Positions 180 through 41,524 of a DNA stretch of 43,893 bases are shown in pieces. How positions within the stretch are numbered: position 1 is the stretch's first letter; the number at the start of each line of letters is the position of its first letter. The stretch lies in the IMG/VR virus record IMGVR_UViG_3300019763_000002, positions 1 to 43,893 of that record; one strand, written 5' to 3'. A model generated the notes under the pieces. The model worked only from the letters and a program-made list of their open reading frames with translations, did not search any database and was not told the DNA's origin. The position numbers and the translations under genes were made by a program. The DNA comes from a virus.

Positions 180-219
180 AACTGGTCGGAGTTGTTGTAT
201 CGAATAAGTGTGTTATAGT
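180..219 (+). promoter_or_regulatory. FadR-like operator/promoter module, copy P1
   Basis: The operator AACTGGTCGGAGTTGTT lies at 180-196, followed by 17 bp and the -10 hexamer TATAGT at 214-219, with TGT just before it (extended -10). The predicted start is about 226. No good -35 box is present; the right half of the operator occupies that place. It heads the plus-strand island 323-1488. The leader is about 97 nt, against 20-26 nt at six of the other copies. Confidence 0.8.
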
Positions 220-225
220 TAATTT

Positions 226-322
226 CGCTAAAGGTGGGTGATTAGATTAGCGGTGCCACACGAACCATCTTCGAACAACGCACAAATGAGTAACCGCATT
301 TTTTTTAATTTAGGAGAATGAA
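226..322 (+). promoter_or_regulatory. Long untranslated leader of island 1, possible attenuator
   Basis: This is the stretch between the predicted start of P1 and the first gene. GCGGT (250-254) can pair with ACCGC (293-297), which is followed by eight T residues, and a small CGAA/TTCG hairpin lies inside. The outer stem is short and its loop long, so this is a weak terminator or attenuator candidate only. A TTCGAAC heptamer at 270-276 recalls a tRNA T-loop, but no flanking T-stem forms. Confidence 0.25.
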
Positions 323-448
323 ATGAGTGAGGAGACAAAACGCATAATTGCAATATTTAAATATGCCGCGAGCAATCCGAAATTAAAGATTGACCATAAG
401 GCATGCGGGCTAAGTTTTAGTGAATTAATGAAGGAGTTAAACAAATGA
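323..448 (+). CDS. Small hypothetical protein, 41 aa
   Basis: This short frame starts MSEETKRIIAIFKYAASNPK and ends LMKELNK. The start is supported by TAGGAGAATGAA immediately upstream, and the stop overlaps the next gene by ATGA, so the two are probably translationally coupled. It is the first gene of the P1 island. The product is small, mixed-charge and probably helical, with no signal peptide or membrane segment. I do not recognise the family. Its reality rests on the ribosome binding site, the coupling and the promoter context. Confidence 0.65.
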   Translation: MSEETKRIIAIFKYAASNPKLKIDHKACGLSFSELMKELNK

Positions 449-927
449 ACAAACAAGAGTTATTTGAAAAAGCGTTGAATGAGTTTAATAAATGGCCTTA
501 CGTTAATCGAGCTTCGATGGTATACGATATTCATGGAGGAGTTTACGCTGACTTTTATGGCGCTAGCGACGATGGATTAAATGAATCTTGGTTTTCTTTC
601 GTCTGCACGCGTGAAGAATTTGAATCGGCAAAGGCTGAGCGTAGTAAAAAGTTTACAAAAGAATTTAATGTAAGAGGCGGCACAAATGTTCCAGAGGTTT
701 GGCAACCTTGCGAGGTTTTGTTTTCTGGTACAAGGTATATTGTAGTTAAAAATGAAAATGGTCGTGAGTTTTCAAGACGCAAAGCTAAAATAAAAATACG
801 CGACATCGACAAACGCACAGATAAAGAAAAGGCTGTTGATGATATGTTAATGAGAATAAATAAAAGAGAACATCTTGGCGATATATTGGGTTTTGTTTAC
901 GATAAATGGGTTGGAGATAAAAAATGA
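445..927 (+). CDS. Hypothetical phage protein, 160 aa
   Basis: A soluble mixed alpha/beta protein with no family I can name. The middle (about residues 80-110) reads like a small beta domain (EVWQPCEVLFSGTRYIVVKN), and the C-terminal third is basic and helical. It overlaps its upstream neighbour by ATGA and is overlapped in turn by the next gene (924), so it sits inside a tightly coupled operon under P1. It is probably an early accessory gene, inserted between the MuF-like gene and the portal gene. Function unknown. Confidence 0.75.
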   Translation: MNKQELFEKALNEFNKWPYVNRASMVYDIHGGVYADFYGASDDGLNESWFSFVCTREEFESAKAERSKKFTKEFNVRGGTNVPEVWQPCEVLFSGTRYIVVKNENGREFSRRKAKIKIRDIDKRTDKEKAVDDMLMRINKREHLGDILGFVYDKWVGDKK

Positions 928-1139
928 AAGAGCTTTTACTAATTTTTATACCACGATTTATCACTGATAGAGTAGCTTTAAATTTTAATGATGGTGTTTG
1001 GTTTGTTTTTTGTTTGGAGTCTCAAGTAGAAGATGATGATTTAATTTCAATAAGCGCTTACGGAACTATAAAAACCTTTACATGGCTTGGTTTTGCAAAA
1101 GGCGGGATGGTTAAATTAGATAAGGGAGATAAAAAATGA
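924..1139 (+). CDS. Hypothetical protein, 71 aa
   Basis: The start ATG overlaps the upstream stop (ATGA), and the stop overlaps the following start in the same way. The N-terminus (MKELLLIFIPRFITDR) is hydrophobic but contains charged residues, so it is a poor signal peptide. The rest alternates hydrophobic and polar residues, like a small beta protein. No family recognised. It is the third gene of the P1 island. Confidence 0.65.
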   Translation: MKELLLIFIPRFITDRVALNFNDGVWFVFCLESQVEDDDLISISAYGTIKTFTWLGFAKGGMVKLDKGDKK

Positions 1140-1303
1140 ACACATACGAAAGACTATTAGAAGTTAACGCAAAAATACGCAAAGAGCGTAAGGCTAAACG
1201 CTTGAGTGAATCGCAACAAAGAATATTAGCGCGTAAAAAGAAAGCTGATGATGTGGCGTTTATGCGCGAGATGAATAAAATTGATGAGGGGTTTGTGTTG
1301 TGA
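1136..1303 (+). CDS. Small basic helical protein, 55 aa
   Basis: This frame starts MNTYERLLEVNAKIRKERKA and ends KIDEGFVL. It is almost entirely charged and helical, with a lysine/arginine-rich centre, so it could be a nucleic-acid-binding or partner-binding peptide, but nothing shows which. The start overlaps the upstream stop and the stop overlaps the GTG start of the next gene. Coupling on both sides is the main evidence that it is real. Confidence 0.6.
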   Translation: MNTYERLLEVNAKIRKERKAKRLSESQQRILARKKKADDVAFMREMNKIDEGFVL

Positions 1304-1488
1304 TTGAATTAATGCTTTTATATTGTGCGTTTATGTATACTTTCGCTGGTGGTTTTGTTTATGTTTGCCTTGAGCGCGGAGTGAATCAGGATTTTTATGA
1401 TAAATGTACGTTATCTTTAAGTCTTATATTGGCGCCGTTAGTTATGCCAATGATATTTGGCGTTATTTACGCTCACGAAAATCTTTAA
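1300..1488 (+). CDS. Small membrane protein, 62 aa
   Basis: The GTG start overlaps the upstream stop (GTGA). Two hydrophobic segments, about residues 3-24 and 40-57, are separated by a short polar loop with a Cys and several charges, which predicts a two-span inner-membrane protein. It ends the P1 island and runs 4 bp into the 3' end of the convergent MuF-like gene. It might affect the host envelope or exclude other phages, but that is a guess from topology alone. Confidence 0.6.
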   Translation: MIELMLLYCAFMYTFAGGFVYVCLERGVNQDFYDKCTLSLSLILAPLVMPMIFGVIYAHENL

Positions 1489-3062: not shown

Positions 3063-3070
3063 GATTTAGC

Positions 3071-3427: not shown

Positions 3428-3451
3428 TGTAAAAACCTCTTAATAATTTAG

Positions 3452-4906
3452 TTATAGTTTAATTGTATTCGATGTGTAAGGCAATTTTATAGTGTTGCTA
3501 CCGAACGTTGGAGTTAGTACTGTTCCTATTGGTATTTCTAATCCGCTAACTGTGCCTGTCGCTGCAAATACTGGCTTACTTACGCTAAACGACACAGAGC
3601 CAGAAGGTTGCGGCAATGTTACAGAGCCAGTCACAGAAAACTGCGGCTTATTTACTGTAAAGCTCACACTTCCCTGTGGGTAAGGCAAAGTAACTGAACC
3701 AGTAGCGCTAAAAATAGGTTTATCAATAGTGAAATCGACGATACCACTTGGGTTTGGTAATGTCGCTTCTCCTGTAGCGCTAAATACTGGCTTGTTTATC
3801 TCAAAATCAATTGATCCACTAGGGCTTGGCTGTGTTGCTGAGCCTGTAGCACTAAACAAAGGCTTGTTAACAGTAAAAGCAATATCACCTTGCGGAAATG
3901 GCACGGTAGCCGATCCACTAGCAGTAAATACAGGTTTATTAACACTAAAAGATACAACGCCGCTAGGTTGTGGCAATGTAGCGCTACCATCTGCACTGAA
4001 TATTGGCTTGCTAACAATAAATGATACATCACCAGACGGCTGTGGAAGTGTTGCAGATCCACTCGCTGTAAATACTGGCTTGTCAATTGTAAAACTAATG
4101 TCACCACTTGGTGCTGGAAGTGTTGCTGTGCCAGATGCAGAAAACACAGGCTTGCTGATTGTGAAATCAACATCGCCTGTTACGCCACCTGTCGCTACAT
4201 TTATAAATGCACCAGCGCCAGCCACCCCGGGCGAGCTTGTTGACTTTATTCTATAATCACCTGCTGCGTAATCTTCAAATATATCAGTAGGAGGGCTTTC
4301 TGTTATTGTATTAGTGCCTGTACCATCATGCTCCCAATTGTTAGCGCTGCCTGATTGCTCATTAAAAAAGCCTTGGTTCGCGGAGTTAACATCAACGCAA
4401 TTAGTAAAAACACCTTGAGCAAAACCAAAACGACCAGCCCCAACAACAGTACATTTGTTTATTGTGTTTAATGTTCTTACTACGCTAGATAAAAATCCAT
4501 CGTCACAGTTGTGTATTAAAATATCTTCTGCATCGATTGAGTTAGGGAAAATAACACCATCAGCACCGCCAGAGTCAACAACTAATCTTCTTATCACAGG
4601 GTTTGTTGCGCTTGTTAAGGTTACTGATGCTGTTCTTAAATCTGTTATTTGACAGTCAGCAACAGTACTTGTTATTGCTGCTGTAGTCCCTGCACCTACT
4701 GCTATATCTCCAGTTGTTTCTTCTCCTGCTTTTGCAGTATATTTGAATGAATCTGGATGGTCGATTTGCGTGAATATTACCGAGGTAGTTGACGTTCCAG
4801 ATTGTTCATATAGCGTAAAAGTTCCGTAACTTGTCCCGCCCTCAGACGCAACAGCCGAAGCAATATCAGCATAAGTTACACCAGAGTTAACGCATAAAAC
4901 AGTCAT
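3452..4906 (-). CDS. Beta-helix plus nine-repeat fibre protein
   Basis: 484 aa in three parts. Residues 1-240 look like a right-handed parallel beta-helix: short strands rich in Asn, Asp and Gly, ending in DYRIKSTSSPGVAGAGAFI, a phrase typical of beta-helix proteins. Residues 244-459 are nine tandem 24-residue repeats with the core KPxFxAxGxATLPxPS. The last 25 residues contain SNTIKL twice. It probably forms an extended virion fibre or spike. Its place next to the terminase and MuF genes, rather than in the tail-tip block, points to a head or collar appendage. No catalytic site is visible. Confidence 0.7.
   Translation of the reverse strand: MTVLCVNSGVTYADIASAVASEGGTSYGTFTLYEQSGTSTTSVIFTQIDHPDSFKYTAKAGEETTGDIAVGAGTTAAITSTVADCQITDLRTASVTLTSATNPVIRRLVVDSGGADGVIFPNSIDAEDILIHNCDDGFLSSVVRTLNTINKCTVVGAGRFGFAQGVFTNCVDVNSANQGFFNEQSGSANNWEHDGTGTNTITESPPTDIFEDYAAGDYRIKSTSSPGVAGAGAFINVATGGVTGDVDFTISKPVFSASGTATLPAPSGDISFTIDKPVFTASGSATLPQPSGDVSFIVSKPIFSADGSATLPQPSGVVSFSVNKPVFTASGSATVPFPQGDIAFTVNKPLFSATGSATQPSPSGSIDFEINKPVFSATGEATLPNPSGIVDFTIDKPIFSATGSVTLPYPQGSVSFTVNKPQFSVTGSVTLPQPSGSVSFSVSKPVFAATGTVSGLEIPIGTVLTPTFGSNTIKLPYTSNTIKL
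3530..4177 (-). repeat. Nine tandem 72-bp coding repeats
   Basis: Nine in-frame 24-codon units encode G-x-[VI]-x-F-x-[IV]-x-KP-x-F-x-A-x-G-x-ATLP-x-P. The unit length never varies. The units differ at many synonymous and some coding positions, so the array is not a very recent expansion and is under selection for the protein pattern. Such arrays can change copy number by recombination and so alter fibre length. Confidence 0.9.
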
Positions 4907-5283: not shown

Positions 5284-5332
5284 TATCTAACCAACCTCTA
5301 TATTTTTAATTACTAAATAATACCACGTGACA

Positions 5333-7055: not shown

Positions 7056-7072
7056 AAAGTTTGGGATTATTG

Positions 7073-10424: not shown

Positions 10425-10638
10425 ATACATATATACACGTACAGCAAAAAACCTCCCCAATTTACCCAAAATAGCAAAAATCCTTTATATACCGTGGTCT
10501 AGGCGTTGGGTAAATGCGCTCCCCAAAGCTTACCCAAAACCGAAATATTTACCCAAAATTGAGCTTTTATCATTTACAGTGTTTACATTTGTTTATATTG
10601 TTTGTTACTATTACCTTATAATTAAAAGAGGAATTAAC

Positions 10639-10869
10639 ATGAATATTCAAGAACAACAAAAATCAGCACTCGGTATTTTATGGCGAACATTTGAATTTAA
10701 TAAGTCAATGTTAGCGAAGGAGTTAGGTGTTAGCCGTCAAACTGTTAACAATTGGTTTTCTCGTGGAAGAATAAGTGCAACATATGCGATCATTGCCAGC
10801 GAGCATAAGAAAGTAAAAATAACAAAAGAGGAAATGCGCCCAGACGTCAAAGAATGGTTTGGAGTTTAA
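10639..10869 (+). CDS. Cro/YdaS-like HTH regulator, 76 aa
   Basis: I take the ATG at 10639 (GAGGAA upstream) rather than the earlier in-frame start. Residues 23-45 (MLAKELGVSRQTVNNWFSRG) form a clear helix-turn-helix, and the C-terminus KKVKITKEEMRPDVKEWFG is the typical end of Cro/YdaS-type proteins. It is the first gene of the replication operon and lies beside the iteron/palindrome region. It probably controls this divergent region, and may repress its own operon. There is no CI partner, so it need not mean lysogeny. Confidence 0.8.
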   Translation: MNIQEQQKSALGILWRTFEFNKSMLAKELGVSRQTVNNWFSRGRISATYAIIASEHKKVKITKEEMRPDVKEWFGV

Positions 10870-13145: not shown

Positions 13146-14911
13146 GAGATTACCAACAAAAGGCACACGACGCGACAATCGAACATTGCAAAAACAGCAA
13201 AGAACCAGCTTTTATTGGTTGCACGGTTGGTGGCGGTAAAACTGTATTAATTGCTGCAATAGCTAAACACGTTTCAGAAAAAGGTGGCAAGGTTTTAGTT
13301 TTGGCTAGACAGGGAGAATTGGTTGAACAAGGCAGTTTAACTGGCTGGGAGTGTGGAATAAAAAACAGCGTATACAGCGCTAGTTTAAATAAAAAATCAA
13401 CATACTACCCTGTCATATATGGCACAGAGGGTACAGTTCAGCGATCGCTTGAAACAACATTTAATGATTTTAAATTTAGTGTGATATTAGTTGATGAATG
13501 CCACCATTTGGACCCGTTAGACTGCTTACAAGATGAGCCAGAAAGCCAGTACGGGAAAATAATAAAACACTTTCGCACACTAAACCATAATTTGCGTGTA
13601 ATTGGCTATACAGGCTCACCTTATCGAGGTAAGGATTCTATATTAGGCGAATTCTGGAAAAAACAATTGTCAGATGTAAGCACCTTTGAATTGATAAACA
13701 AAGGCTTTTTGGTTCCACCTGTTTTTGGATTTGGCGATGATGAACATGCTTATGATTTATCTGCTTTCAATAAAAAAGATGAAACAGAGGATTATACGCA
13801 AAAAGAATTACAGGCTATGGGCAGAGCTATAACCAAAGAAAAAGATAAAACACAGATGATCATGGAAGAAGTCATTGAACGAACCAAAGACAAATTAGGC
13901 GTTATGATAACTTGCGCAAGCAAAAAACACTGCGAACAAGTCGCTGAATGCTTACCTGATGGGACGTGGGGCATAGTTACTGATTCAACAAACACAAAAG
14001 AAAGACGAAAAATACTTTTAGATATAAAAACAGGTAAACGTAAATTTGTAATTCAAATTGGATGTTTAACAACTGGTATTGATTTAAGTCTTTTACAGGT
14101 TTCTGTGATTTTAAGAAAAATCGGCTCTTTATCTCTTTTAATTCAATTGATGGGTAGGGTTTTTCGCACATTAAAACCGCACGAAATAGACGCTGGACTA
14201 GTTAAAGATGAAGCTTTAATTCTCGATTATACTGACACTATGATGTCATTTGGCGACATATTCGACGATCCAATTGTCGGCCAAGCAATAGCGCAAAAAG
14301 CAAAACAAAAAGATGCTGTTTTAGAGTGTCCAGCGTGTAGTACATATAATAGTGAATATGCGGTTAGATGTTGCGGAACTGATTTAAATAGCACTGACGG
14401 ACGTTGTGAATATTTCTTTAAATATAATGAGTGTAAAAACTGTGGTGCAAAAAACGCGCCAACATCAAAAAGCTGTCGTAATTGTGATGCTGTAATGATT
14501 GATCCAAATAGCGCTTTAGTACACAAAGCTTATACTGATGCAGATTATAAAAGCGTTAAACAAATGACATTTACCACAACTAAAAACGGTAAATTAAAAA
14601 TAACCTACGATTTGGATAGTACATATTTTAAAGACGGCGAAGAATTTCCAGAATTTGCGGTCGAGATGTTTGCAATAGGTGGTGATGTGCAACAATACGA
14701 ACGCGCTAGATGGTTTAAATTTGTCGATCAACATATCAACGGGCGCGAGTTTAAACGCAAGGCAGCGGCGTTTAGAAGCGTACAGGACGTTATAACAATG
14801 AAAGCTATGTTTGATAAGCCGACAGAAATAACGCACCGCAAAAATGACAAAGGCTTTAGTATAATATCGCGTAAAAAGTTTAATAGTGGGAGAGAGGCGT
14901 TTAGTAGTTAA
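13133..14911 (+). CDS. SF2 DNA helicase with zinc ribbons
   Basis: 592 aa. Superfamily 2 motifs in order: Q-like LRDYQQKA at the start, Walker A GCTVGGGKT (29-37), DECH box (121-124), GYTGSPYRG (motif III), and QLMGRVFRT (motif VI). A cysteine-rich region of about 60 residues follows, with CPAC and CKNCGAKNAPTSKSCRNC, two probable zinc ribbons that contact DNA. The C-terminal 140 residues are unassigned. It resembles phage UvsW/RadD-type helicases used in replication and recombination. Its stop codon lies inside the next promoter's operator. Confidence 0.85.
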   Translation: MYELRDYQQKAHDATIEHCKNSKEPAFIGCTVGGGKTVLIAAIAKHVSEKGGKVLVLARQGELVEQGSLTGWECGIKNSVYSASLNKKSTYYPVIYGTEGTVQRSLETTFNDFKFSVILVDECHHLDPLDCLQDEPESQYGKIIKHFRTLNHNLRVIGYTGSPYRGKDSILGEFWKKQLSDVSTFELINKGFLVPPVFGFGDDEHAYDLSAFNKKDETEDYTQKELQAMGRAITKEKDKTQMIMEEVIERTKDKLGVMITCASKKHCEQVAECLPDGTWGIVTDSTNTKERRKILLDIKTGKRKFVIQIGCLTTGIDLSLLQVSVILRKIGSLSLLIQLMGRVFRTLKPHEIDAGLVKDEALILDYTDTMMSFGDIFDDPIVGQAIAQKAKQKDAVLECPACSTYNSEYAVRCCGTDLNSTDGRCEYFFKYNECKNCGAKNAPTSKSCRNCDAVMIDPNSALVHKAYTDADYKSVKQMTFTTTKNGKLKITYDLDSTYFKDGEEFPEFAVEMFAIGGDVQQYERARWFKFVDQHINGREFKRKAAAFRSVQDVITMKAMFDKPTEITHRKNDKGFSIISRKKFNSGREAFSS

Positions 14912-15051: not shown

Positions 15052-15891
15052 ATGATAAAAAACATATCAATGCAAGAATATCGCGAAAATGAAGCGCTTT
15101 CTAATCACGAATTGCAAATATTTAAAAACAATCCAAGTAGCTATATTTGGAATAAAAAAGCGCCAAGCGATCCAAATAAAACAGGAACCAGTGATTTAGG
15201 CACAGCCTTACATGCTAAACTATTAGAGCCTGAAACATACGACGATTTAATTATTGTCGCTGATGTTAAGGGCCGTAGCACTGTAGCATTTAGCAAATTG
15301 CAAATTGAAAACCCCGAAAACATTGTGTTAACTGAAATTGAAGCCGAGCAAGTTAGAATTATGGCAGACTCAGCAGGTCACGACCCAATGTTTAAAGCAA
15401 TTCTAGACTGTGACGGGCAAGCAGAAGCGAGTGTTTTTGTAATAGACCCTAACACTGGCTTAAAACTTAAAATACGCCCTGACAAGGTTTTATACGGCTT
15501 TTTAGGTCAGTCTGTAACATTAGCAGACGTAAAAACCACATCAAACATTGATGATTGGCGCAATACTGCAAAATGGAAAAATCCGTTATTTACGTTTGGT
15601 TATGGATTTACAGCGGCATATTATTTGTATGTTGGTTCAATTCACTTTGACACAGAGTTAACAGAATATTTATTCCCGATTGTACAAACTAGCTCATGCT
15701 TAGGTAAGTATCCTGTATCAGTGTTTAAAATCACTAAGCAAGAATTAATCGAGATGGGATTTTGGTATGAAATGCTAGAAACGTTGCAATACTTTGCACA
15801 CTGTAAAGCTGAAAATGAATTTACGACGTTTGAATATTTTCCTAATTTTGGAAATTACGACGATGAAATTATAATTAATGATGTGGAGTAA
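15052..15891 (+). CDS. RecE/YqaJ-type PD-(D/E)XK exonuclease
   Basis: 279 aa. LSNHELQIFKNNPSSY followed by GTALHAKLLEP is the N-terminal signature of DUF3799/RecE-type 5'-3' exonucleases. The active site can be read as His54, Glu125, Asp144 (KIRPD) and Asp159-x-Lys161 (LADVKTT), with the trailing FGYGFTAAYYLYV helix. It would resect double-stranded ends for single-strand annealing. No RecT/Beta protein is recognised beside it; the next gene could supply a partner. Start chosen at the ATG with AAGGA upstream. Confidence 0.85.
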   Translation: MIKNISMQEYRENEALSNHELQIFKNNPSSYIWNKKAPSDPNKTGTSDLGTALHAKLLEPETYDDLIIVADVKGRSTVAFSKLQIENPENIVLTEIEAEQVRIMADSAGHDPMFKAILDCDGQAEASVFVIDPNTGLKLKIRPDKVLYGFLGQSVTLADVKTTSNIDDWRNTAKWKNPLFTFGYGFTAAYYLYVGSIHFDTELTEYLFPIVQTSSCLGKYPVSVFKITKQELIEMGFWYEMLETLQYFAHCKAENEFTTFEYFPNFGNYDDEIIINDVE

Positions 15892-15895
15892 AAAA

Positions 15896-16477
15896 ATGGA
15901 TATATCAGATTTAAGTGATACTATTATAGCAAAATCAGACCAGTTAAATGCAGAAGATTTAATAACTGGCGATAGAGTTTTAAAAGTAACAAATGTTGTT
16001 CGTTATAGCCATAATGGCGAGCAAAGTTTTTATTTAAATTATGACGGTGATGATGGCCGCCCTTACAAGCCATGTTTGACTATGCGTAGAATGATACAAG
16101 CTTTGTGGGGCAAAGATGGTAGGAGTTATATTAATGGGCTTATACAGGTTTACCTTGATCCTGATGTTGATTATGGGAAGCAAAAGGGCTGTGGCGGCAT
16201 AAGAATTAACGGTGTATCTGGAATAGACTCACCAAAAGATGTTACTTTGACAGTTCGTAGAGGCATTAAAAAAACCTATCGAGTAAATCAGCTGCAATTA
16301 GCAGAAAAGCCACCCTATCCAGAAGATAAATTCAACGCTGGTTTTGAAGCAATGAAAGCGCAAATACAAAACGGTAAAATGACAACAGAGCAAGTTATTA
16401 ATCGTTGTGAAGCTAGCGGCAAGCTAAGCGAACAACAAAGACAAATGATTCGAGAATTAGACGAGAGTGAGGGTTAG
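15896..16477 (+). CDS. Recombination-operon protein, 193 aa
   Basis: The frame is open from 15878, but GGAG eight bases before the ATG at 15896 favours the start MDISDLSDT. About residues 30-130 look beta-rich and OB-like ([20 protein letters not shown]), with [12 protein letters not shown] and a Gly-rich turn. The C-terminal 60 residues are helical ([20 protein letters not shown]). Between an exonuclease and SSB it may act as the annealing or loading partner, but it does not look like RecT, Beta or Erf. I do not recognise the family. Confidence 0.75.
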
Positions 16478-16479
16478 AA

Positions 16480-16995
16480 ATGGCTGGCGTTAATAAAGCA
16501 ATAATTTTAGGTAATTTAGGGCAAGATCCGGAAGTGCGATTTATGCCAAGTGGCGAGGCTGTTGCGAATCTATCAATAGCAACTTCTGAAACATGGAAAG
16601 ACAAGCAAACTGGCGAGCAAAAAGAAAAAACAGAATGGCATCGCGTATCTGTTTTTGGTAAATCAGCTGAAATAGCTGGAGAATATCTTAAAAAAGGCTC
16701 TAAAGTTTATATCGAGGGTAAAATCCAGACTCGCAAATGGACTGACCAGCAAGGTCAAGATAAATACACAACCGAAATTGTATTACAAGGTTTTGGTGGA
16801 GTCATGCAAATGCTTGATGGTAAAAATAATAGCGGTGGACAGCAAGTTACGCAACCAAGTTATCAGCAACAAGCGCCAACTCAGCAACCGATACATAAAG
16901 TTAACCCACAAGAGCCAACTATCGACTTTGATGATGATATCCCATTTGCCCCAATCGGATTAATGCACAATAATTTATTAATTCACTGCATATAA
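16480..16995 (+). CDS. ssb: Single-stranded DNA-binding protein
   Basis: 171 aa. The OB fold starts [20 protein letters not shown] and contains [20 protein letters not shown] and [12 protein letters not shown], all standard SSB signatures. A Gln/Pro-rich linker follows, then DFDDDIPF, the acidic tip that recruits partner proteins. Here the tip is not terminal: [15 protein letters not shown] follows. I recall similar tails in other phage SSBs, so it may be a phage-specific interaction tail. It is preceded by GAGGG and lies 2 bp after its neighbour. Confidence 0.93.
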
Positions 16996-17032
16996 CAACA
17001 AAGCCAAGGACGGCTATTTTAAGAGGTGTAAT

Positions 17033-17488
17033 ATGAAAATAATAGGTATTGATCCAGACGTAAGAAAGTGCGGTTTATGCGTTATGCATGACGGAGTTAT
17101 TATAGAGTTAAGCTGTACCACACCATCAAAAATAATAGAAGATATTAAAATTTACCATGAGCGAGGTTATATTTTTGCTATTGAAGACCTGGAAAGCAGT
17201 AAGGCAACTTATTATAGGGGAAAGCAAAACCAAGCGCAGATGATGAAAATAGCTCAAAATGTAGGAATGGCAAAAGGCGCTTATGAAATAATAAAGCAAG
17301 CGATTATTGAGTGCACAGGTAATAATCCGTTTTTATCACCACAAGGTTGTGGAAAGTTAGTTAAAAAAGATAAAGATTATTTCAATCAAATATCTGGCTG
17401 GAGTGAAAATAGCAATGAGGATAAGCGTGATGCATGGGCTGTAGCTAATTTCGCTTATAAAAATTATAAAGGTATAAAAAATGTTTAA
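17033..17488 (+). CDS. RuvC-like Holliday junction resolvase
   Basis: 151 aa. The RNase H-like fold begins IGIDPDVRKCGL (Asp7), followed by AIEDLES (Glu51/Asp52), and ends with EDKRDAWAVANFA, the acidic helix that completes the metal site in RuvC. It would cut branched DNA before packaging. Preceded by AAGAGGTG at normal spacing and followed by a 60-aa gene overlapping it by 8 bp. Confidence 0.85.
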   Translation: MKIIGIDPDVRKCGLCVMHDGVIIELSCTTPSKIIEDIKIYHERGYIFAIEDLESSKATYYRGKQNQAQMMKIAQNVGMAKGAYEIIKQAIIECTGNNPFLSPQGCGKLVKKDKDYFNQISGWSENSNEDKRDAWAVANFAYKNYKGIKNV

Positions 17489-17663
17489 ATTACCAAAATT
17501 AACAAACTACAAAACACTATACAATAAAGAAAAACTACGCGCTGATTTATTGCAGCATGATTTGGATATAGTTGACGAGTTGCATTATGACGAAATTAAA
17601 AAGCTAGAAAATTGTATTGATAAATTGCGTGGCCAACTGGTCAGAATGGCTAAGGAAAAATAA
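17481..17663 (+). CDS. Small coiled-coil protein, 60 aa
   Basis: Highly charged and helical throughout (DLDIVDELHYDEIKKLENCI, then DKLRGQLVRMAKEK) with heptad spacing. It overlaps the end of the resolvase gene by 8 bp, suggesting coupled expression and perhaps an accessory role. The last codons contain an AACTGGTCAGA half-operator, but without a second half or a -10. Confidence 0.6.
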   Translation: MFKLPKLTNYKTLYNKEKLRADLLQHDLDIVDELHYDEIKKLENCIDKLRGQLVRMAKEK

Positions 17664-17705
17664 AGAGCATAACCCTTAGTTAAAACGTGAATGGAGCAAA
17701 GCGTA

Positions 17706-17885
17706 ATGAATCTTTTTGAACGTGTTGTTATGTTTTTTAAGCCTAAAACTAGCAAGCAAATAGTGGAGGAGTTTATTGAGGTATTTCCGGATCGCTGCAT
17801 GATTTGCAGTATGCACGATTTTGGATTAAATAACGGTTTATGCACTGGCGACGCAAAACCACATAAATGTATAGAGAAAACATAA
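17706..17885 (+). CDS. Small Cys-rich protein, 59 aa
   Basis: Two starts are possible, 17691 and 17706. GGAG lies about 9 bp before the second, which I chose (MNLFERVVMFFKPKTS). The C-terminal half carries CMICSMHDFGLNNGLC and then HKC, giving four Cys and two His that could hold one zinc ion. The short hydrophobic N-terminus is probably an amphipathic helix. It is the last gene before promoter P3. Function unknown. Confidence 0.55.
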   Translation: MNLFERVVMFFKPKTSKQIVEEFIEVFPDRCMICSMHDFGLNNGLCTGDAKPHKCIEKT

Positions 17886-18009: not shown

Positions 18010-18204
18010 ATGAAATATTTAAATTACGACCAAACTAGCGGACAAGTGACAGACAAGTCAGGAACGCTTATTACCACTTATATTGGCGCTACCCCTGTAG
18101 AAATAGAAAAATCTTCAACAGTTGATGATATTATCAAGTTAAAAAATGCTGGCTTTACAGCGGAAGATATTATCGCCATTAAAAAAGCTAATTTGGATAA
18201 ATAA
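18010..18204 (+). CDS. Hypothetical protein, 64 aa
   Basis: First gene under P3, with TTAGGAGAATAAA before the ATG. The N-terminal half is beta-like (GQVTDKSGTLITTYIGATPV). The second half (STVDDIIKLKNAGFTAEDII) looks like a small helical UBA/SHOCT-like unit that could bind a partner. No firm family. It lies 1 bp before the following gene. Confidence 0.65.
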   Translation: MKYLNYDQTSGQVTDKSGTLITTYIGATPVEIEKSSTVDDIIKLKNAGFTAEDIIAIKKANLDK

Positions 18205-18205
18205 A

Positions 18206-18481
18206 ATGAAAACACCTGAAAAAATGACAGTAACCTTATTTTTCTACAAGATGCCTTATTATGACCATTTTAAATGGACAGATGCGTCAGAGATGGAAAA
18301 ATTCGGATGGGAACTTTTAGCGACTAAAGAAATTGAAATTGAGACACCAGAAATTAATAGTTCTGATTTATTACAAAGAAAACGTGATAGACTTGAAGAG
18401 CAGAAACAAAAAGCGATTGAATCCAAAGAAATTGAAATTGCAGCTATTGACGATCATTTGGCGGCTTTAAAAAAGATTTAA
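18206..18481 (+). CDS. Hypothetical coiled-coil protein, 91 aa
   Basis: I take the ATG at 18206, one base after the upstream stop. The N-terminal part is a small alpha/beta region (VTLFFYKMPYYDHFKW). Residues 50-91 form a charged coiled coil (RKRDRLEEQKQKAIESKEIE). No family recognised. Part of the P3 transcript. Confidence 0.6.
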   Translation: MKTPEKMTVTLFFYKMPYYDHFKWTDASEMEKFGWELLATKEIEIETPEINSSDLLQRKRDRLEEQKQKAIESKEIEIAAIDDHLAALKKI

Positions 18482-20953: not shown

Positions 20954-21364
20954 TTATACATACTCCCCTATTTCATACGCGTAAACTATATCGCGCCCTG
21001 TATTTCCTGCGTTTTTATCTACAGAAAATGAAGTACATTCAATCACGTCATAAACCTTAAGGCCAGCGCTTGGTGATGAAATATTAACAAAGTTTCTTAT
21101 GACTGCGAATTGCGTGCTGTCTGCCGAGTTAGCGTGAACTAATTCTTTTTCTGACTCAATAACCGTGCCGTTAACAGTTAATGATATTCCAACCTGACCA
21201 GAGACTAATGAAGTTAGTAAAAATATTCTGTAAACCTTGCTACCACTCTCTGCAACCGATAATAAATTCCCAGTTTGCCCTAGTGTAATAGTTCCAGATG
21301 AAATCCCCTCAGAAACAAAATAAGTTTTATCTCCTGCGACCTGTGTTAATGGTATGTCAGCCAT
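20954..21364 (-). CDS. Tail-associated beta protein, 136 aa
   Basis: Beta-rich throughout (GTITLGQTGNLLSVAESGSK), Ser/Thr/Val-rich, with no Cys pairs except one. Directly adjacent to the 177-aa gene. It is probably a small tail or fibre component. No family recognised. Confidence 0.65.
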   Translation of the reverse strand: MADIPLTQVAGDKTYFVSEGISSGTITLGQTGNLLSVAESGSKVYRIFLLTSLVSGQVGISLTVNGTVIESEKELVHANSADSTQFAVIRNFVNISSPSAGLKVYDVIECTSFSVDKNAGNTGRDIVYAYEIGEYV

Positions 21365-26895: not shown

Positions 26896-26921
26896 TTAAA
26901 AAAACAACGGAGGATATGAAT

Positions 26922-27122
26922 ATGAATAAAAAAGAAGCAGCTATTGTTGGTGCATATACTGGGATTTTAATCGGTGATTTTTCAGATATGCACAAATATA
27001 TTGAGGAAAAGCTAGGGCGACCTGTATTTACCCATGAATTGGCAAATAGTGGAACTGTAAAGAAAATAAAAAATGCTTCTAAAAATGATTTTTTAGAAAT
27101 TTGCCAAAACCTTAAGGATTAA
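26922..27122 (+). CDS. DUF7736-like small phage protein, 66 aa
   Basis: Start chosen at the second of two close ATGs, 8 bp after CGGAGG. The sequence AAIVGAYTGILIGDFSDMHK then YIEEKLGRPVFTHEL is a phrase I recall from a widespread family of small phage proteins (DUF7736 type) of unknown role. It is the first gene of the P4 island, which sits between the tape-measure and tail-chaperone genes. Confidence 0.7.
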   Translation: MNKKEAAIVGAYTGILIGDFSDMHKYIEEKLGRPVFTHELANSGTVKKIKNASKNDFLEICQNLKD

Positions 27123-27123
27123 C

Positions 27124-27306
27124 ATGCTACCACCCGACAGAAGATACCATTGCCGCGGCTTGTGGTATAAAAAAGGCTTATTTGATTTTATGTATTATTG
27201 GCTTGATGATAAATGGGTTAGAAGCTCAGAGACAGAGCAAGAAATAATCGACGAAGTTAAACGAGAAAAACGAATTGAAGATAATTTAAATAAAAAAGCC
27301 TCATAA
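27124..27306 (+). CDS. Hypothetical protein, 60 aa
   Basis: A Trp/Tyr-rich N-terminal half (CRGLWYKKGLFDFMYYWLDD) and a charged helical C-terminus. It starts 1 bp after the previous stop, and its own stop lies in the loop of the bidirectional terminator. No family recognised. Confidence 0.6.
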   Translation: MLPPDRRYHCRGLWYKKGLFDFMYYWLDDKWVRSSETEQEIIDEVKREKRIEDNLNKKAS

Positions 27307-27320
27307 CGAGGCTTTATTTT
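27295..27320. terminator. Bidirectional terminator containing both stop codons
   Basis: AAAGCCTC-ATAAC-GAGGCTTT followed by ATTTTT on the plus strand and preceded by A residues that give a U-tract on the minus strand. The plus-strand stop (27304-27306) and the minus-strand stop (27301-27303) both fall in the hairpin, a very compact convergent end between the P4 island and the tail-chaperone transcript. Confidence 0.85.
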
Positions 27321-28340: not shown

Positions 28341-29672
28341 ATGAAAAGAGTATATAAAGACAAGAATGTTTTTGATGCAGCTTATGAAAGGATGGATTTC
28401 ATTTGGAAGAATTTCGAGCGTGTATATTTAAGTCTTTCAGGCGGCAAAGATTCTGGCGTAATGATGAATCTATGTCTTAAATACATGAGAGAAAATAAAG
28501 ATATCGTCGCGGGAAGGAAACTTGGCATCCAAATAATGGATAATGAAGCTAATTATGATGAATCGATAGAGTTTATGGAGCGTATAATAAATGACAATAT
28601 AGAATATCTTGATGTTTATTGGTGCTGTCTTCCGATTACATTACCTTGCACAGTATCCGCTTATCATATGGATTGGCAGTGCTGGGGTGAAAGAGACAAA
28701 GATCGCTGGATAAGGCCAATGTATGATTATCCGTATGTTGTAAATATGTCAAATCACCCTTTTGGTGATTTATTCAAAGAGGATATGGGTTATGATGAAT
28801 TTTGGGATATGTTCGCAGAATGGTATAGTCAAGGCAAATCTTGCGCCAATATGATAGGCATTAGAACCCAGGAGTCATTAAATCGCTTCAGAGCATTGAT
28901 GAATGAAAGAAAGCAAACAGTTAAAGGTCGCATGTGGACAAAGAAAAACACAGAACACACGTATAATGTTTATCCGATTTATGATTGGAAAGTTGATGAT
29001 GTTTGGATTTCTACAGGGCAATATGACTGGGATTACAACAAGCTTTACGACTTATTTTACAAAGCAGGAATTCCAATAAACTCTATGCGTGTTGCATCAC
29101 CTTTTATGAGTGAAGCAAAGTCGAGTTTAGGGCTTTACCGAGTTATAAATCCACATATATGGGCTAGATTATGCGCCAGGGTTCAGGGTGCTAATTTTGT
29201 CGCGACATATGGCAAGCAGCTTGATTACAAATCGATAAAATTACCTGATGGGCATACATGGAAATCATTTGTTAAGTTTCTTCTTGATACTCTACCTCAA
29301 GAGTCAGCAGAAAATTTTAAATTGCGCTTTGCTCAATCAATAAAGTTCTGGGCTAGAGTTGGGCGCGGGTTGCATGATGATGTAATTGAAGAGCTTAGAA
29401 GTATTGGCGTTAAGTTTAGGTTGAATGGATTAACCCCCCACGGCTCTAAAAAGCTTAGTCGGGTGTGTATAACGGTGCCGCCAGACCACGTTGACGGGCT
29501 TAAAAAAAATAACAGCGATGTTACAAGCTGGAAACGATTCGCTATAACGATATTGAAGAATGACCACACATGTAAATACATGGGGTTACAACCAACACAT
29601 GAGCAAGCAAAAAGACAGCGCGCGATCATGGAGAAATACAAAAATATAGGGATAAAAGGAGAAAAGAAATGA
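28341..29672 (+). CDS. PAPS-reductase-like DUF3440 protein (IbrA type)
   Basis: 443 aa. The PP-loop SLSGGKDS at residues 31-38 binds a nucleotide in the adenine-nucleotide alpha-hydrolase fold; NMIGIRTQESLNR and FYKAGIPINSMRVASPFM are typical of the phage/IbrA-type DUF3440 branch. Family members pair with ParB-like IbrB, as here, and in E. coli IbrA/IbrB affect gene expression. True PAPS reduction is unproven; AMP-transfer or sulfur chemistry is possible. It is the first gene of the P5 cassette and overlaps the next by 4 bp. The C-terminus has an ITILKNDHTCKYMGLQPT segment echoed in the gene at 30945. Confidence 0.85.
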   Translation: MKRVYKDKNVFDAAYERMDFIWKNFERVYLSLSGGKDSGVMMNLCLKYMRENKDIVAGRKLGIQIMDNEANYDESIEFMERIINDNIEYLDVYWCCLPITLPCTVSAYHMDWQCWGERDKDRWIRPMYDYPYVVNMSNHPFGDLFKEDMGYDEFWDMFAEWYSQGKSCANMIGIRTQESLNRFRALMNERKQTVKGRMWTKKNTEHTYNVYPIYDWKVDDVWISTGQYDWDYNKLYDLFYKAGIPINSMRVASPFMSEAKSSLGLYRVINPHIWARLCARVQGANFVATYGKQLDYKSIKLPDGHTWKSFVKFLLDTLPQESAENFKLRFAQSIKFWARVGRGLHDDVIEELRSIGVKFRLNGLTPHGSKKLSRVCITVPPDHVDGLKKNNSDVTSWKRFAITILKNDHTCKYMGLQPTHEQAKRQRAIMEKYKNIGIKGEKK

Positions 29673-30061
29673 AAGTAGTTAACTATAAAAATCTAGAGAA
29701 AGAAAGAGTTGTTGAATTCCATGCGGGTGTCAGTCATAGAATAATTCTAAAAAGTGACAACATGGGTTTTGGCTTGACTAGAACAACAATATTACCTGAA
29801 GCTGGCAGAGTTTTTCAGCATTATAAGAATCATCAAGAATCTTGCTATTGTGTCAATGGCTTGGCTATCCTTGAATGCGCTGAAACAGGTAAGCAACACT
29901 TCATTAAGCCAGGGGACACTTATATTCTTGCAAATAATGAACCTCATTATTTTACAGCGTTAGAAGAGACTGTTCTTATTTGCTCATGGAATCCACCATT
30001 AATTGGTAAAGAGGTCCATAGAAAAGATGGTTCATATTCAACTGACGGGAGTAACGACTAA
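29669..30061 (+). CDS. Ectoine-synthase-like cupin (EctC family)
   Basis: 130 aa, the full EctC length. HYKNHQES, GDTYILANNEPHYF and WNPPLIGKEVHRKDGSY follow ectoine synthase closely. From memory of the Paenibacillus lautus enzyme, the iron ligands Glu57, Tyr85 and His93 are present at the same positions, as are Tyr52, His55, Gly64, Leu87, Glu115 and His117; Phe107 is Trp here. EctC closes N-gamma-acetyl-diaminobutyrate to ectoine. No ectA or ectB is in the genome, so it may use a host precursor or another substrate. It overlaps both neighbours. Confidence 0.8.
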   Translation: MKVVNYKNLEKERVVEFHAGVSHRIILKSDNMGFGLTRTTILPEAGRVFQHYKNHQESCYCVNGLAILECAETGKQHFIKPGDTYILANNEPHYFTALEETVLICSWNPPLIGKEVHRKDGSYSTDGSND

Positions 30062-30588
30062 TGACAAAATTTAAATCACCGGTTTACAATGTAATACCAG
30101 TTCCAATTGAAAAGGTTACTGCTAACGACTACAACCCTAACAGCGTAGCCCCACCTGAAATGGCGTTACTGGAAACATCAATCTGGGAAGATGGGTACAC
30201 TCAACCAGTTGTTACCGTTTACGACAAAGAAAATGATAAGTATGTTGTTGTTGATGGTTTCCATCGTTTTCTCACATTAAAAAACTCAAAGCGTATATTG
30301 GAGCGAGAGGGAGGTGTTTTACCTTGTGTTGTTCTTGATAAAGAAATGCACGACCGTATGGCATCAACAATTAGACACAATAGAGCTAGGGGTTCACACA
30401 ACATTGAGTTGATGAGTACAATAGTTTCAGAGCTTGTCGAGATGGGTAAAGGGGATAGATGGATTTGTCAGCACGTAGGTATGTCACCTGACGAGCTACT
30501 TAGAATGAAGCAAATAACAGGTATTGCCGCATTATTCCAAAATAAGGATTTTTCTGATAGTTGGGAAGTAGAGGATGAGGAAGTTTAA
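30061..30588 (+). CDS. ParB-like nuclease-domain protein (IbrB type)
   Basis: 175 aa. IEKVTANDYNPNSV starts the ParB/Srx-like fold, and YVVVDGFHRFLTLK (residues 61-74) is the ParB box, where known members bind or hydrolyse nucleotides. TIRHNRARGSHNIELM and MGKGDRWICQHVGMSPDELL form a helical DNA-binding-like part. It belongs with the PAPS-reductase-like gene as in IbrA/IbrB pairs, here with the EctC-like gene between them. It overlaps the upstream stop by one base and the next gene by 14 bp. Confidence 0.8.
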   Translation: MTKFKSPVYNVIPVPIEKVTANDYNPNSVAPPEMALLETSIWEDGYTQPVVTVYDKENDKYVVVDGFHRFLTLKNSKRILEREGGVLPCVVLDKEMHDRMASTIRHNRARGSHNIELMSTIVSELVEMGKGDRWICQHVGMSPDELLRMKQITGIAALFQNKDFSDSWEVEDEEV

Positions 30589-30985
30589 AAGAGTTTGGCA
30601 TCCTTATGAAAATTGGGAAGAGGTAAAGTTTAACATGTGGGGGTCTGTCAATGACAGGTCCTCATGGATAAAAAAAGCAGTTATTTTTACTAGTGACCAC
30701 AAATTATACGGAACTTATATGCAAAAAGTCGTAAATGAGTGGCCTATAAGTTGTGAAAACGCATTAACTGATTATTACATGAATAGAAAGGCGTGGATTG
30801 GTCATGCTGCTTGCGCTATGGCCATGAATTGTCCCGAAGATATAACGAGGCAGGCTTGGAAAGAATTAAGTTATGAGCAACAATATTTGGCAAATCAGGA
30901 AGCAATCAGAGCAATACGAACATGGGAGAACATGTATATCGAGAGTGAACAGTTACGTGAAAGTATGGGAGGAACGCTGCTATGA
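30575..30985 (+). CDS. Cassette protein, 136 aa, unknown
   Basis: Aromatic-rich alpha-helical protein (RVWHPYENWEEVKFNMWGSV), with TDYYMNRKAWIGHAACAMAM in the middle. Its start overlaps the IbrB-like gene by 14 bp, which ties it to the cassette. I recall similar small proteins beside phage DUF3440/ParB pairs but cannot name a family. No membrane or zinc features. Probably a partner of the IbrA/IbrB-like proteins. Confidence 0.7.
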   Translation: MRKFKRVWHPYENWEEVKFNMWGSVNDRSSWIKKAVIFTSDHKLYGTYMQKVVNEWPISCENALTDYYMNRKAWIGHAACAMAMNCPEDITRQAWKELSYEQQYLANQEAIRAIRTWENMYIESEQLRESMGGTLL

Positions 30986-31184
30986 AAATGGTATACCTGA
31001 CGAGATTGAAGCAGGGTTGATGAATTCTATGAGAGTTCCAAGCTACAAAGCGCTTGCTATGTGCATACTTAACAATGATCTTCATCTATACGGTGTAGGT
31101 TTTTCCCCGCATATAAGTCATTGGTACAGGGTGGTAAAACAAATAAACCAGCCTAAAACATCTCAGATTGATATGTTCGAGTAA
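30945..31184 (+). CDS. Cassette protein, about 79 aa
   Basis: The frame is open from 30873, but the coding signal begins near VWEERCYENGIPDEIEAGL; GTG codons at 30945 or 30957 are the likely starts, giving a short overlap with the gene upstream. The segment SYKALAMCILNNDLHLYGVG resembles the C-terminal SWKRFAITILKNDHTCKYMG of the DUF3440 protein in the same operon, so it may be a detached or duplicated domain of it. Ends in DMFE just before the terminator. Confidence 0.65.
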   Translation: MNSYVKVWEERCYENGIPDEIEAGLMNSMRVPSYKALAMCILNNDLHLYGVGFSPHISHWYRVVKQINQPKTSQIDMFE

Positions 31185-31797: not shown

Positions 31798-32058
31798 ATG
31801 ACAAAACTAGCAAAGCCAACAAAGCAAGAGTGTTTAGATAAACTGAAAGATATGCAATCTGGATTAATTGATATAATTAGTTATGTAGAATCTTCTGATG
31901 ATGTCATTGATTTTAGTTTTTACGATTCTAGTATTGCTATAAAAAATACAATGAAAGAGATGTTTAAAAATGATTACGCAAAAGTATACGGATTAGGTAA
32001 TAACGTAATGATTGATACAAGGCTTAATATTAAGATAGATTTGAGAGTTAACCCCTAA
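31798..32058 (+). CDS. Hypothetical single-gene island protein, 86 aa
   Basis: The sole gene behind P6, with AAGGAAG before the ATG. Soluble, mixed alpha/beta, acidic N-terminal helix (TKQECLDKLKDMQSGLIDII). No family recognised. A whole promoter for one small gene suggests a dose-sensitive or conditionally useful product. Its end overlaps the convergent tail-completion gene by 11 bp. Confidence 0.65.
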   Translation: MTKLAKPTKQECLDKLKDMQSGLIDIISYVESSDDVIDFSFYDSSIAIKNTMKEMFKNDYAKVYGLGNNVMIDTRLNIKIDLRVNP

Positions 32059-33890: not shown

Positions 33891-33930
33891 AACTGGTTAG
33901 ACCACTTTAACAATAAATGTAGTGTACTAT
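33891..33930 (+). promoter_or_regulatory. FadR-like operator/promoter module, copy P7
   Basis: Operator AACTGGTTAGACCACTT (33891-33907), 17 bp and the -10 TACTAT (33925-33930). It is the only copy where the TG before the -10 is shifted by one base, so it lacks the extended -10. Predicted start about 33937. It heads the longest island (33963-36759). Confidence 0.75.
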
Positions 33931-35017: not shown

Positions 35018-35021
35018 ACGA

Positions 35022-36430: not shown

Positions 36431-36432
36431 TT

Positions 36433-37514: not shown

Positions 37515-37549
37515 GCTCTTTATCTTCTCTACACGATTTTATAACGTGC

Positions 37550-38255: not shown

Positions 38256-38262
38256 TATGTTA

Positions 38263-39385: not shown

Positions 39386-39395
39386 TACTTATTCC

Positions 39396-39605
39396 TCAGC
39401 TTGTGCTTTTCGTTTTTTTCTTGCTTGCTGGCTTAGGTGTATCTTGAAGTTCGGGCTCGTCACTGGTGCGAACGCTGGCTTTTTCTTTTCTTTCTCGTTG
39501 CTTTCCATCTGATTTAACCTCTTTGTTTTGGTTTTTGATTTTCATCAATGTTTCAAAATCAACGCTTTGACCTGGCGCTAATCCGTCTTTATTTAAATCC
39601 GACAT
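39396..39605 (-). CDS. Disordered Lys-rich protein, 69 aa
   Basis: Charged, low-complexity and almost surely unfolded (RERKEKASVRTSDEPELQDT), with a Lys/Ser-rich tail. It is the first gene after the major capsid gene, and its Shine-Dalgarno AGAGGT lies in the stem of the capsid-gene terminator. A scaffolding or DNA-neutralising role inside the head is possible, not shown. Confidence 0.6.
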   Translation of the reverse strand: MSDLNKDGLAPGQSVDFETLMKIKNQNKEVKSDGKQRERKEKASVRTSDEPELQDTPKPASKKKTKSTS

Positions 39606-39609
39606 AAAA

Positions 39610-39643
39610 AAATACCTCTTTGATGCTATCTTAGAGGTATTTT
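39610..39643 (-). terminator. Terminator after the capsid gene, masking the next ribosome site
   Basis: An 11-bp perfect stem AAAATACCTCT / AGAGGTATTTT with a 13-nt loop, followed on the minus strand by a run of seven T residues that ends at the ATG of the 69-aa gene. The stem contains that gene's Shine-Dalgarno (AGAGGT). It should cut both transcription and translation past the capsid gene. Confidence 0.8.
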
Positions 39644-39668
39644 ATAACAGTTAGCTAGTTATTACTAA

Positions 39669-40679
39669 TTAGTTAGTGATCAAGTAAGCTAACGGAATAT
39701 TTTTACGTTCAATCACTCGATCCCACACGCCAGCAGTTCCTAACTCAGCTAATGTAAAGCTATGGCCAGATGGTGTGCCTGTTTGTTGGAAGCCAAATGG
39801 ATGTAAAATCCAAGTGTTACGCAACCATAAAGTTTCGATGCCGCCACCGTCACCTTGAGCAGCTTCGCGCTCAACTTCAACAGGAGTATCAGGAGAACCA
39901 ACACCGTAACCGAATGCACCAGCGCCAAATAATACAGAAGTATATTTGAAGCCATCGGTTGAGCCAGCCGTTACAGTCATGCCATCGTCAACGATTACAC
40001 GCAAACCCATGTAAGTTGGGATAGTTAATTGACCTTGTGAGTCTGGAATATAAACAATATCGTCATTCTTAACCATCTGTTGCATAACTTGAGAGTGTAC
40101 AGCCATTGCAGATAACTGTGTTGCCATATCACCAAGCGAATAAACTGCTTCTGTAAACGCATCGCGGTTAAATCTAGTTGCCGCAGATTGCCCAGCGATT
40201 GACTCGCTAGCAACATCGTTAACCATGTCGCCTGAATCATTAGCCACGTTATCAGCTAAAACACCGTTAGACGCAGCAATTAAGCGACGTTGCCATTGGC
40301 GCATGAAATATGTGTCGGTACGTGCACGGATGTGATCCATCGCTTTTGCGCCCATCGCCAATTCAGATGCTAAATCAGCAACTTGCCAACCTTGGTTAAC
40401 AAAAGCTTTACGTGTGATTTGCTCACCTTGATCTGTTTTTTGAGGAGTTGCAGAAGAAGTTGGATCATCGCTTGAGTAGTTAGTCTCAACTGATCCGTCT
40501 AAATCTTTCCAGAATGGTAACTCGGCAGTTTTACCAGCCGCGTTTGCTAACTCATCTAAAAGCGCGTTGCGTGTAACAATACCGCTTTGAAAAAAAGCTG
40601 TTTTTTCTGGACCGTTTACCGCTGGTAAGTCGCGGAATACTGTGACATCAATGATGTCTGATAGTTTTGTAGTAGCCAT
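39669..40679 (-). CDS. Major capsid protein
   Basis: 336 aa, an HK97-fold coat protein judged by length, the place after scaffold, and sequence such as GWQVADLASELAMGAKAMDH, TDTYFMRQWQRRLI and AMAVHSQVMQQMVKND, typical of coat proteins without a protease-cleaved arm. The C-terminal part ends in RNTWILHPFGFQQTG, characteristic of these coats. Good ribosome binding site (AGAGGCACTTAA). The terminator just downstream suggests a much higher level than the following genes. Confidence 0.9.
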   Translation of the reverse strand: MATTKLSDIIDVTVFRDLPAVNGPEKTAFFQSGIVTRNALLDELANAAGKTAELPFWKDLDGSVETNYSSDDPTSSATPQKTDQGEQITRKAFVNQGWQVADLASELAMGAKAMDHIRARTDTYFMRQWQRRLIAASNGVLADNVANDSGDMVNDVASESIAGQSAATRFNRDAFTEAVYSLGDMATQLSAMAVHSQVMQQMVKNDDIVYIPDSQGQLTIPTYMGLRVIVDDGMTVTAGSTDGFKYTSVLFGAGAFGYGVGSPDTPVEVEREAAQGDGGGIETLWLRNTWILHPFGFQQTGTPSGHSFTLAELGTAGVWDRVIERKNIPLAYLITN

Positions 40680-40695
40680 TTAAGTGCCTCTTGTA

Positions 40696-41421
40696 TTAGT
40701 TGTAATACGCTGTTTTAAGCTGTTCATAACGTTGCGGATCGTCTTTCAATAATGCGCTAAGTTCAGCTCCAGAATATTCATTAAATTTTTTGTCAGGGGC
40801 ACGGCCTCCTTGATTGTTCGAGCCTTTAGCATTGCCGCCATTTTCGGTTGCAATATCAGCTTTCGTTAATGGCATCAATAAAGCGTTCTTTCTCAATTCA
40901 GCTTCAAAATCTGCCTGTTTTAGTGATGTAGCACGGCCACTATCATCTAAAAAAGTTACTTCGTCTGTCTCTGGGTCAATTTCTATATACCGTGAAACTA
41001 ACATTTTATAAGCATCAGAACCGCCTTTTACGGCATACTTGCTAGCCAATTCAGCCGCCATTGCTGACTTCTGTTTTTCTGCAAGCTTTTTCATTCGCTC
41101 TTTAAATTGATTTTCTGACTCGGTTGCTCGCTTTTCTGCATCTGCGATTTTCTGTGTCAAACGGCTTTCAATTTCTTCCGTATTACCCTCAGCTTTTGCT
41201 TTTTCATAAGCTTTTAATTCAGCCTGTGAAATTCGCTCAGCCTCGTTGTTCTTGTACTCAGCCAATTCCGCAGCGGTTAACTTAGTTTGTTTATCTAAAT
41301 CGTCAGCCGTTCTTTTGACTTTTAATAACCCAGCATGTGAATAACCGTCACCATCTTTAACATAATCGTTTTTAAGAAATTCTGGTAATTCGCTATACTG
41401 TTCTTCTGTTAGTTTCGACAT
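40696..41421 (-). CDS. Capsid scaffolding protein
   Basis: About 241 aa from the ATG at 41421 (a GTG two codons earlier is less likely). Long charged coiled-coil region (AELKAYEKAKAEGNTEEIES; QFKERMKKLAEKQKSAMAAE) is the hallmark of phage scaffolds; it lies between portal and capsid genes. The C-terminus is Gly/Asn-rich and then amphipathic, as in proteins that bind coat subunits. No protease domain. Confidence 0.85.
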   Translation of the reverse strand: MSKLTEEQYSELPEFLKNDYVKDGDGYSHAGLLKVKRTADDLDKQTKLTAAELAEYKNNEAERISQAELKAYEKAKAEGNTEEIESRLTQKIADAEKRATESENQFKERMKKLAEKQKSAMAAELASKYAVKGGSDAYKMLVSRYIEIDPETDEVTFLDDSGRATSLKQADFEAELRKNALLMPLTKADIATENGGNAKGSNNQGGRAPDKKFNEYSGAELSALLKDDPQRYEQLKTAYYN

Positions 41422-41454
41422 AATCACGGACCTGTCTTTGTTAGTTAAAAATAC

Positions 41455-41467
41455 GTATCACTGATAC
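41455..41467. promoter_or_regulatory. Palindrome GTATCACTGATAC upstream of scaffold
   Basis: A 6-bp inverted repeat with a 1-bp centre, 34 bp upstream of the scaffold start on the minus strand and 18 bp from the P8 operator on the plus strand. The core TATCACTGATA matches the tet operator core, probably by chance. It may be an operator for the late capsid transcript or nothing. Confidence 0.3.
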
Positions 41468-41484
41468 ACATAACGCTATAATAC

Positions 41485-41524
41485 TACTGGTCAGACCACT
41501 TGACAACTTTTAGTATGTTATAGT
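41485..41524 (+). promoter_or_regulatory. FadR-like operator/promoter module, copy P8
   Basis: Operator TACTGGTCAGACCACTT (41485-41501), 17 bp, TGT and the -10 TATAGT (41519-41524). Predicted start about 41531, 24 nt before the ATG at 41555, with AGGAGA between. It heads the island between scaffold and portal. Confidence 0.8.

Follow-up and report, generated by a model that had tools for sequence, protein, structure and literature searches.

FadR-type operators at eight dispersed promoters of a complete phage genome, probably served by host FadR

Which protein acts on the eight short promoter modules that are dispersed over the marine phage genome in IMG/VR record IMGVR_UViG_3300019763_000002? 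The whole record, 43,893 nt in length, was analysed and is referred to below as the window. Each of its eight plus-strand modules (P1 to P8) consists of a 17-bp palindrome followed, after exactly 17 bp, by a -10-like hexamer. A first-pass annotation proposed that host FadR, a regulator released by long-chain acyl-CoA, binds these palindromes. FadR of E. coli and Shewanella binds the fabA promoter, which it activates, and is released by C16-C18 acyl-CoA (PMC4537474); fad promoters are repressed by FadR (PMC9329746). Our best reading names the same protein: from their sequence and placement, the palindromes are probably operators of host FadR.

Operator sequence and the fabA promoter

All eight modules were found at the plus-strand positions and with the exact 17-bp spacing first reported for them. 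TGT directly precedes the hexamer in seven of the eight, as had also been claimed, giving an extended -10; the exception is P7, which reads GTG before TACTAT. Two parts of the original description required correction. The modules are similar rather than identical, with a nearly fixed left half (ACTGGTC in seven modules, ACTGGTT in P7) and a promoter-proximal right half that varies between GAGTTGTT, GAGCAGTT, TACCAGTT, TACCACTT and GACCACTT. Nor are they all intergenic, as the helicase open reading frame, with its stop at 14911, runs into P2 (14910). Six modules are placed between divergent genes, P2 and P3 being the two without a leftward gene. The rightward promoters have no -35 box, and the palindrome lies at about -46 to -30.

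A comparison of the genome with its shuffled versions, using a FadR weight matrix, had been suggested in the first-pass annotation. We carried this out with a matrix free of phage sequence, derived from seven E. coli sites in promoters that FadR targets. With this E. coli-only matrix the modules score 14.9-18.7 bits, and no other plus-strand position in the window exceeds 12.1; in 50 dinucleotide-preserving shuffles, the mean number of positions scoring at least 14.9 bits was 0.04. A matrix restricted to fabA sites ranked P1 and P3 first, with P5 and P2 next, and gave low scores to P4 and P7, as expected for modules with the other kind of promoter-proximal half. The E. coli fabA site that the annotation had given, AACTGATCGGACTTGTT, proved to be right. 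Every module therefore carries a 17-bp site that fits the FadR matrix, and as far as its sequence can tell the operator belongs to the FadR type, whichever protein occupies it.

For comparison with bacterial promoters, we used the GTDB family of Marinifaba aquimaris (Alteromonadaceae-type), which we take to include Alteromonas and Pseudoalteromonas; it is the likely host family and may not be that of the record's host. At 22 of 30 fabA loci in this family, a nACTGnTCnGAGTTGTT-type site lies exactly 18 bp before a TAAATT-like -10, examples being AACTGTTCGGAGTTGTT (locus L401) and CACTGTTCAGAGTTGTT. The same layout was seen at 17 of 30 order-level fabA loci, which carry GAGTTGTT or the E. coli-type GACTTGTT. 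P1 and P3 are a single base away from the L401 site, and the odd half-site GAGTTGTT is common to these two modules and to Alteromonadaceae-type fabA promoters. Simple arithmetic gives 1512 eight-mers that lie three mismatches from AACTGGTC, and the degenerate half that these modules share with fabA, which reads AACAACTC inward, is one of them. The FadR_C domain was found in 58 of the 60 family genomes and in 112 of 149 from the order. At the FadR loci themselves there is no FadR-type site.

Table 1. Positions of the rightward modules, the leftward promoter-like sequences and the main phage-encoded candidate binder in the window
Feature	Position	Strand	Sequence elements	Genes and remarks
P1	180..219	+	AACTGGTCGGAGTTGTT (180-196), 17-bp spacer, extended -10 TATAGT (214-219)	divergent from portal gene
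P2	14910..14949	+	AACTGGTCGGAGCAGTT, 17 bp, TAGTAT	upstream of recombination/SSB genes 15052-17885
P3	17944..17983	+	AACTGGTCGGAGTTGTT, 17 bp, TATATT	upstream of 18010-18481; fabA-type half-site
P4	26856..26895	+	AACTGGTCGTACCACTT, 17 bp, TAGTAT	upstream of cassette ~26916-27306
P5	28271..28310	+	CACTGGTCGGAGCAGTT, 17 bp, TATGAT	upstream of PAPS-reductase/ectoine-synthase-like/ParB cassette 28341-31184
P6	31730..31769	+	AACTGGTCGTACCAGTT, 17 bp, TATAGT	upstream of 31798-32058; highest FadR-matrix score in window
P7 (weakest)	33891..33930	+	AACTGGTTAGACCACTT, 17 bp, TACTAT, without TGT	10 bp from minus-strand gene start 33881
P8	41485..41524	+	TACTGGTCAGACCACTT, 17 bp, TATAGT	upstream of 41555-42439
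Leftward promoter over P4	26848..26877	-	TTGCTA-18-TATACT	to tape-measure gene (start 26819); -10 scored, -35 read from sequence (4/6)
Leftward promoter over P5	28265..28293	-	TTGCCC-17-CATAAT	to gene starting 28172; mechanical scan
Leftward promoter over P6	31723..31752	-	TTGCCT-18-TATAAT	to probable tail gene starting 31679; -10 scoring and mechanical scan
Leftward promoter over P8	41478..41506	-	TTGTCA-17-TATTAT	to scaffold/capsid genes (start 41427); -10 scoring and mechanical scan
YdaS/Cro-like helix-turn-helix (HTH) protein	10633..10869	+		head of replication operon; no module at own promoter

Putative leftward promoters across the palindromes

The first-pass annotation described the rightward promoters and reported no leftward ones. 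At P4, P5, P6 and P8 the element is two-sided, with leftward promoter-like sequences that straddle the palindrome and face minus-strand, mostly virion, genes. A mechanical promoter scan of the window independently lists those across P8, P6 and P5 and does not list the one over P4; in the same scan, promoter-like matches in the window overall are no commoner than in shuffles. At P1 there is a weaker box facing the portal gene.

The two orientations were also seen in 69 sites that the E. coli matrix selected from 15 phage records. Here, the -10 boxes are concentrated at +17 from the palindrome, with 12 observed against 0.55 expected, and again at +1 to +4 (16 observed, 2.2 expected). On the far side of the palindrome, a strong -10 lies 0-6 bp away in 9 of 39 forward modules, where about one was expected.

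From this arrangement we infer a scheme of FadR occupancy, activation, repression, ligand response and timing. Until long-chain acyl-CoA accumulates, each palindrome would be occupied by a FadR dimer of the infected cell. Lying at about -46 to -30, a position that differs from that at fabA by no more than 1 bp, the dimer would help RNA polymerase to start the accessory and recombination genes rightward. At the divergent sites it would lie between the leftward -35 and -10 and block transcription of the scaffold/capsid, tail and tape-measure genes, so that a dimer bound at a straddled site would repress the leftward genes while in the position from which FadR activates fabA. Loss of FadR, or its release by acyl-CoA, would reverse both effects. 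The original proposal that FadR switches the phage genes on was incomplete in this respect, as the same sites also stand in a repressing position over leftward promoters.

Candidate binders in the window and in related phages

The window has an exact 123-bp terminal direct repeat (1-123 and 43771-43893) and, because these ends are identical, the genome is complete and closes to a 43,770-bp circle. The repeat is present although the record's group may be classed by IMG/VR as linear-ended. Once the circle is closed, P1 lies 57 bp from the start of the portal gene (122, minus strand). Even though the genome is complete, no GntR gene was found in the window by Pfam, by a FadR N-domain profile or by mini-protein profiles, and here a host protein is the simplest binder. 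Similarly, no GntR domain or gene was found in the phage genomes G001, G002 and XX1924.

The geometry of the modules recurs in other phage records. The Alteromonas phages PB15 and XX1924 have about eight FadR-type sites each, several of them with the GAGTTGTT half, and at several sites in XX1924 (L407) the distance to a -10 is 17 or 18 bp. A FadR-like DNA-binding domain of 74 aa, lacking the acyl-CoA domain, is encoded by Alteromonas phage P24 (L405, 11035-11259). FadR is the best-matching family for this domain (4.8e-11, with the next regulator at 8.4e-6) and FadR structures are its best solved relatives (6.5e-7); the only site in P24, CACTGGTCGGAGTTGTT, begins 143 bp upstream of the gene. 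G003, a complete phage with a 144-bp end repeat and about ten near-uniform ACTGGTCTAATCTGT sites, encodes an 83-aa GntR-type mini-protein (L033, L179; contig 21028-21279) that resembles PdhR, NanR and FadR about equally. The GntR-like match in PB15 (L161, 28542-28811) is weaker and lies in a frame without a clear start, which may be disrupted. A search for viral proteins related to the mini-proteins of G003 and PB15 returned only G003 itself and one poor match. A broad pattern scan of viral contigs gave mostly lone chance matches, plus several true module phages. No convincing alternative operator family emerged from a de novo repeated-module search in the named relatives, and no other convincing palindrome family from the capsid relatives, the latter being a weak search that missed the window's own family too.

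A number of observations weigh against host FadR. The seven E. coli sites were picked by similarity to AACTGGTC, and the matrix test is therefore mildly circular and not wholly independent. The site-to--10 distance is 17 bp in the window modules as opposed to 18 bp in the 22 host-family fabA promoters, and the host family of the record is likely only. Among the genomes sampled, the perfect core ACTGGTCNGACCAGT occurs in 2 of 15 that bear FadR versus 3 of 13 that lack it, and the exact palindrome adjoins other GntR genes in Marinobacter, Oceanospirillum, Thalassospira and Stutzerimonas (loci L242, L211, L209, L194 and L241). Since G003 and P24, and perhaps PB15 too, have GntR-type domains of their own, the binder in those phages may be phage-made. 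Finally, no sites were found in the Pseudoalteromonas phages XCL1123, TW1, H40/1 and C7. The first-pass reading is thus upheld in part. The matrix, the fabA half-site, a position within 1 bp of that at fabA, the near-universal FadR of the likely host family and the failure to find a phage GntR gene all speak for it, and a core that does not track FadR and the other GntR regulators beside identical palindromes speak against it.

These last palindromes, several of them in bacteria whose genomes gave no FadR_C match, would be accounted for if the binder were a different host regulator from the FadR subfamily of GntR proteins, for instance a relative of the Marinobacter or Stutzerimonas genes, and the TGGT-N3-ACCA core is common to this subfamily. 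We nevertheless consider such a regulator very unlikely, given that both the half-site AACAACTC and the placement near -40 match fabA, which is known to be controlled by FadR, that TTGGT-N3-ACCAA sites of the PdhR/LldR type are absent from the window, and that the P24 domain fits FadR best. The leftward promoters, which stand in a repressing position, raise a different possibility, namely that the palindromes are repressor sites only, with the rightward promoters free of any activator and the bound protein shutting both sides. Extended -10 boxes can indeed work without a -35. Repression alone, however, would not require the sharp 17-bp peak between palindrome and -10 that is seen across records, within 1 bp of the fabA layout, and this explanation appears unlikely.

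Repeated, dispersed phage operators usually answer to a phage protein, and an early DNA-binding protein encoded by the phage could bind the palindromes and run a middle/late switch in the manner of CI or MotA. It might be the YdaS/Cro-like protein (Table 1) or a small unrecognised one. HTH homologs occur in the module phages G001 and PB15 and weakly in G002, and the GntR-type domains of G003 and P24 are phage-encoded near such sites. A protein of this kind would leave the fabA-specific half-site unexplained, however, and no GntR-like domain was found in the window, G001, G002 or XX1924; we regard a phage-encoded binder as quite improbable. Among the known candidates (HTH and GntR), no cognate phage DNA-binding gene was found to co-occur with the sites. 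The YdaS/Cro-like protein was rejected as the main binder: 47-49% homologs, as close as that of PB15, are present in the site-less H40/1 and C7, and none was found in the site-bearing G003 or G004, the latter a fragment.

If host FadR is the binder, its role could extend to that of an early/late switch: from operators shared between divergent promoters, the dimer released by acyl-CoA would turn accessory genes on and keep virion genes off. P24 and G003 would then use a FadR-like domain that is blind to the ligand to seize those operators. We put this fuller version forward as a tentative possibility.

Genome context and known systems

The terminase of the window is 61% identical to the terminases of Plesiomonas phage phiP4-7 and Kagunavirus, its capsid has 54% identity with that of Alteromonas phage R9Y1, and its helicase is about 58% identical to those of Pseudoalteromonas phages TW1 and XCL1123. 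Proteins of the cassette at 28341-31184 show 74-93% identity to XCL1123, the phage in which no FadR-type site was found. A terminator-like hairpin on both strands (27295-27315) lies at the junction of the P4 cassette and a convergent minus-strand gene, and the protein encoded at 3452-4906 contains many copies of a short GSATLPxPSG-type motif.

Among known systems, the FadR-activated fabA promoter of Gammaproteobacteria such as E. coli and Shewanella (PMC4537474) has a same-type 17-bp palindrome just upstream of the -10, and the GAGTTGTT half of P1 and P3 is identical to that of Alteromonadaceae-type fabA. The phage differs in having eight copies, with 17 rather than 18 bp to the -10 and an extended -10. 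It also lacks a FabR site and has a divergent leftward promoter at several modules. The nearest published principle comes from cyanophages S-PM2d and P-SSM2, in which phage genes are under host PhoB, with binding shown by gel shift (PMC10976474). There, as apparently in the window, operators of a host nutrient-sensing or metabolic regulator lie upstream of phage genes, although the window sites are identified by sequence only, the regulator and signal are different, and the sites are dispersed and also straddle leftward promoters. According to the authors of that study, boxes predicted in phage genomes should not be relied on unless binding is tested (PMC10976474). As in lambda OR, with its CI and Cro, divergent promoters would share operators from which one is activated and the other repressed, but in the window the binder appears to be a host protein, the sites are dispersed and no lysogeny genes were seen. 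A link between a phage and a GntR regulator is also known from P22, as the regulator of the host dgo operon, DgoR, is a GntR protein. P22 Pid derepresses this operon (PMC3573128); here, by contrast, phage promoters would make use of the host regulator.

The literature searched, which leaves out most subscription journals, yielded no report of FadR use by a phage. If host FadR does bind these operators, the transcription programme of the phage would be tied to the membrane-lipid state of the host through a known sensor. It would also make a metabolic host regulator a phage early/late switch, in a case that is directly testable, as isolated Alteromonas phages with such sites exist in PB15, XX1924 and P24.

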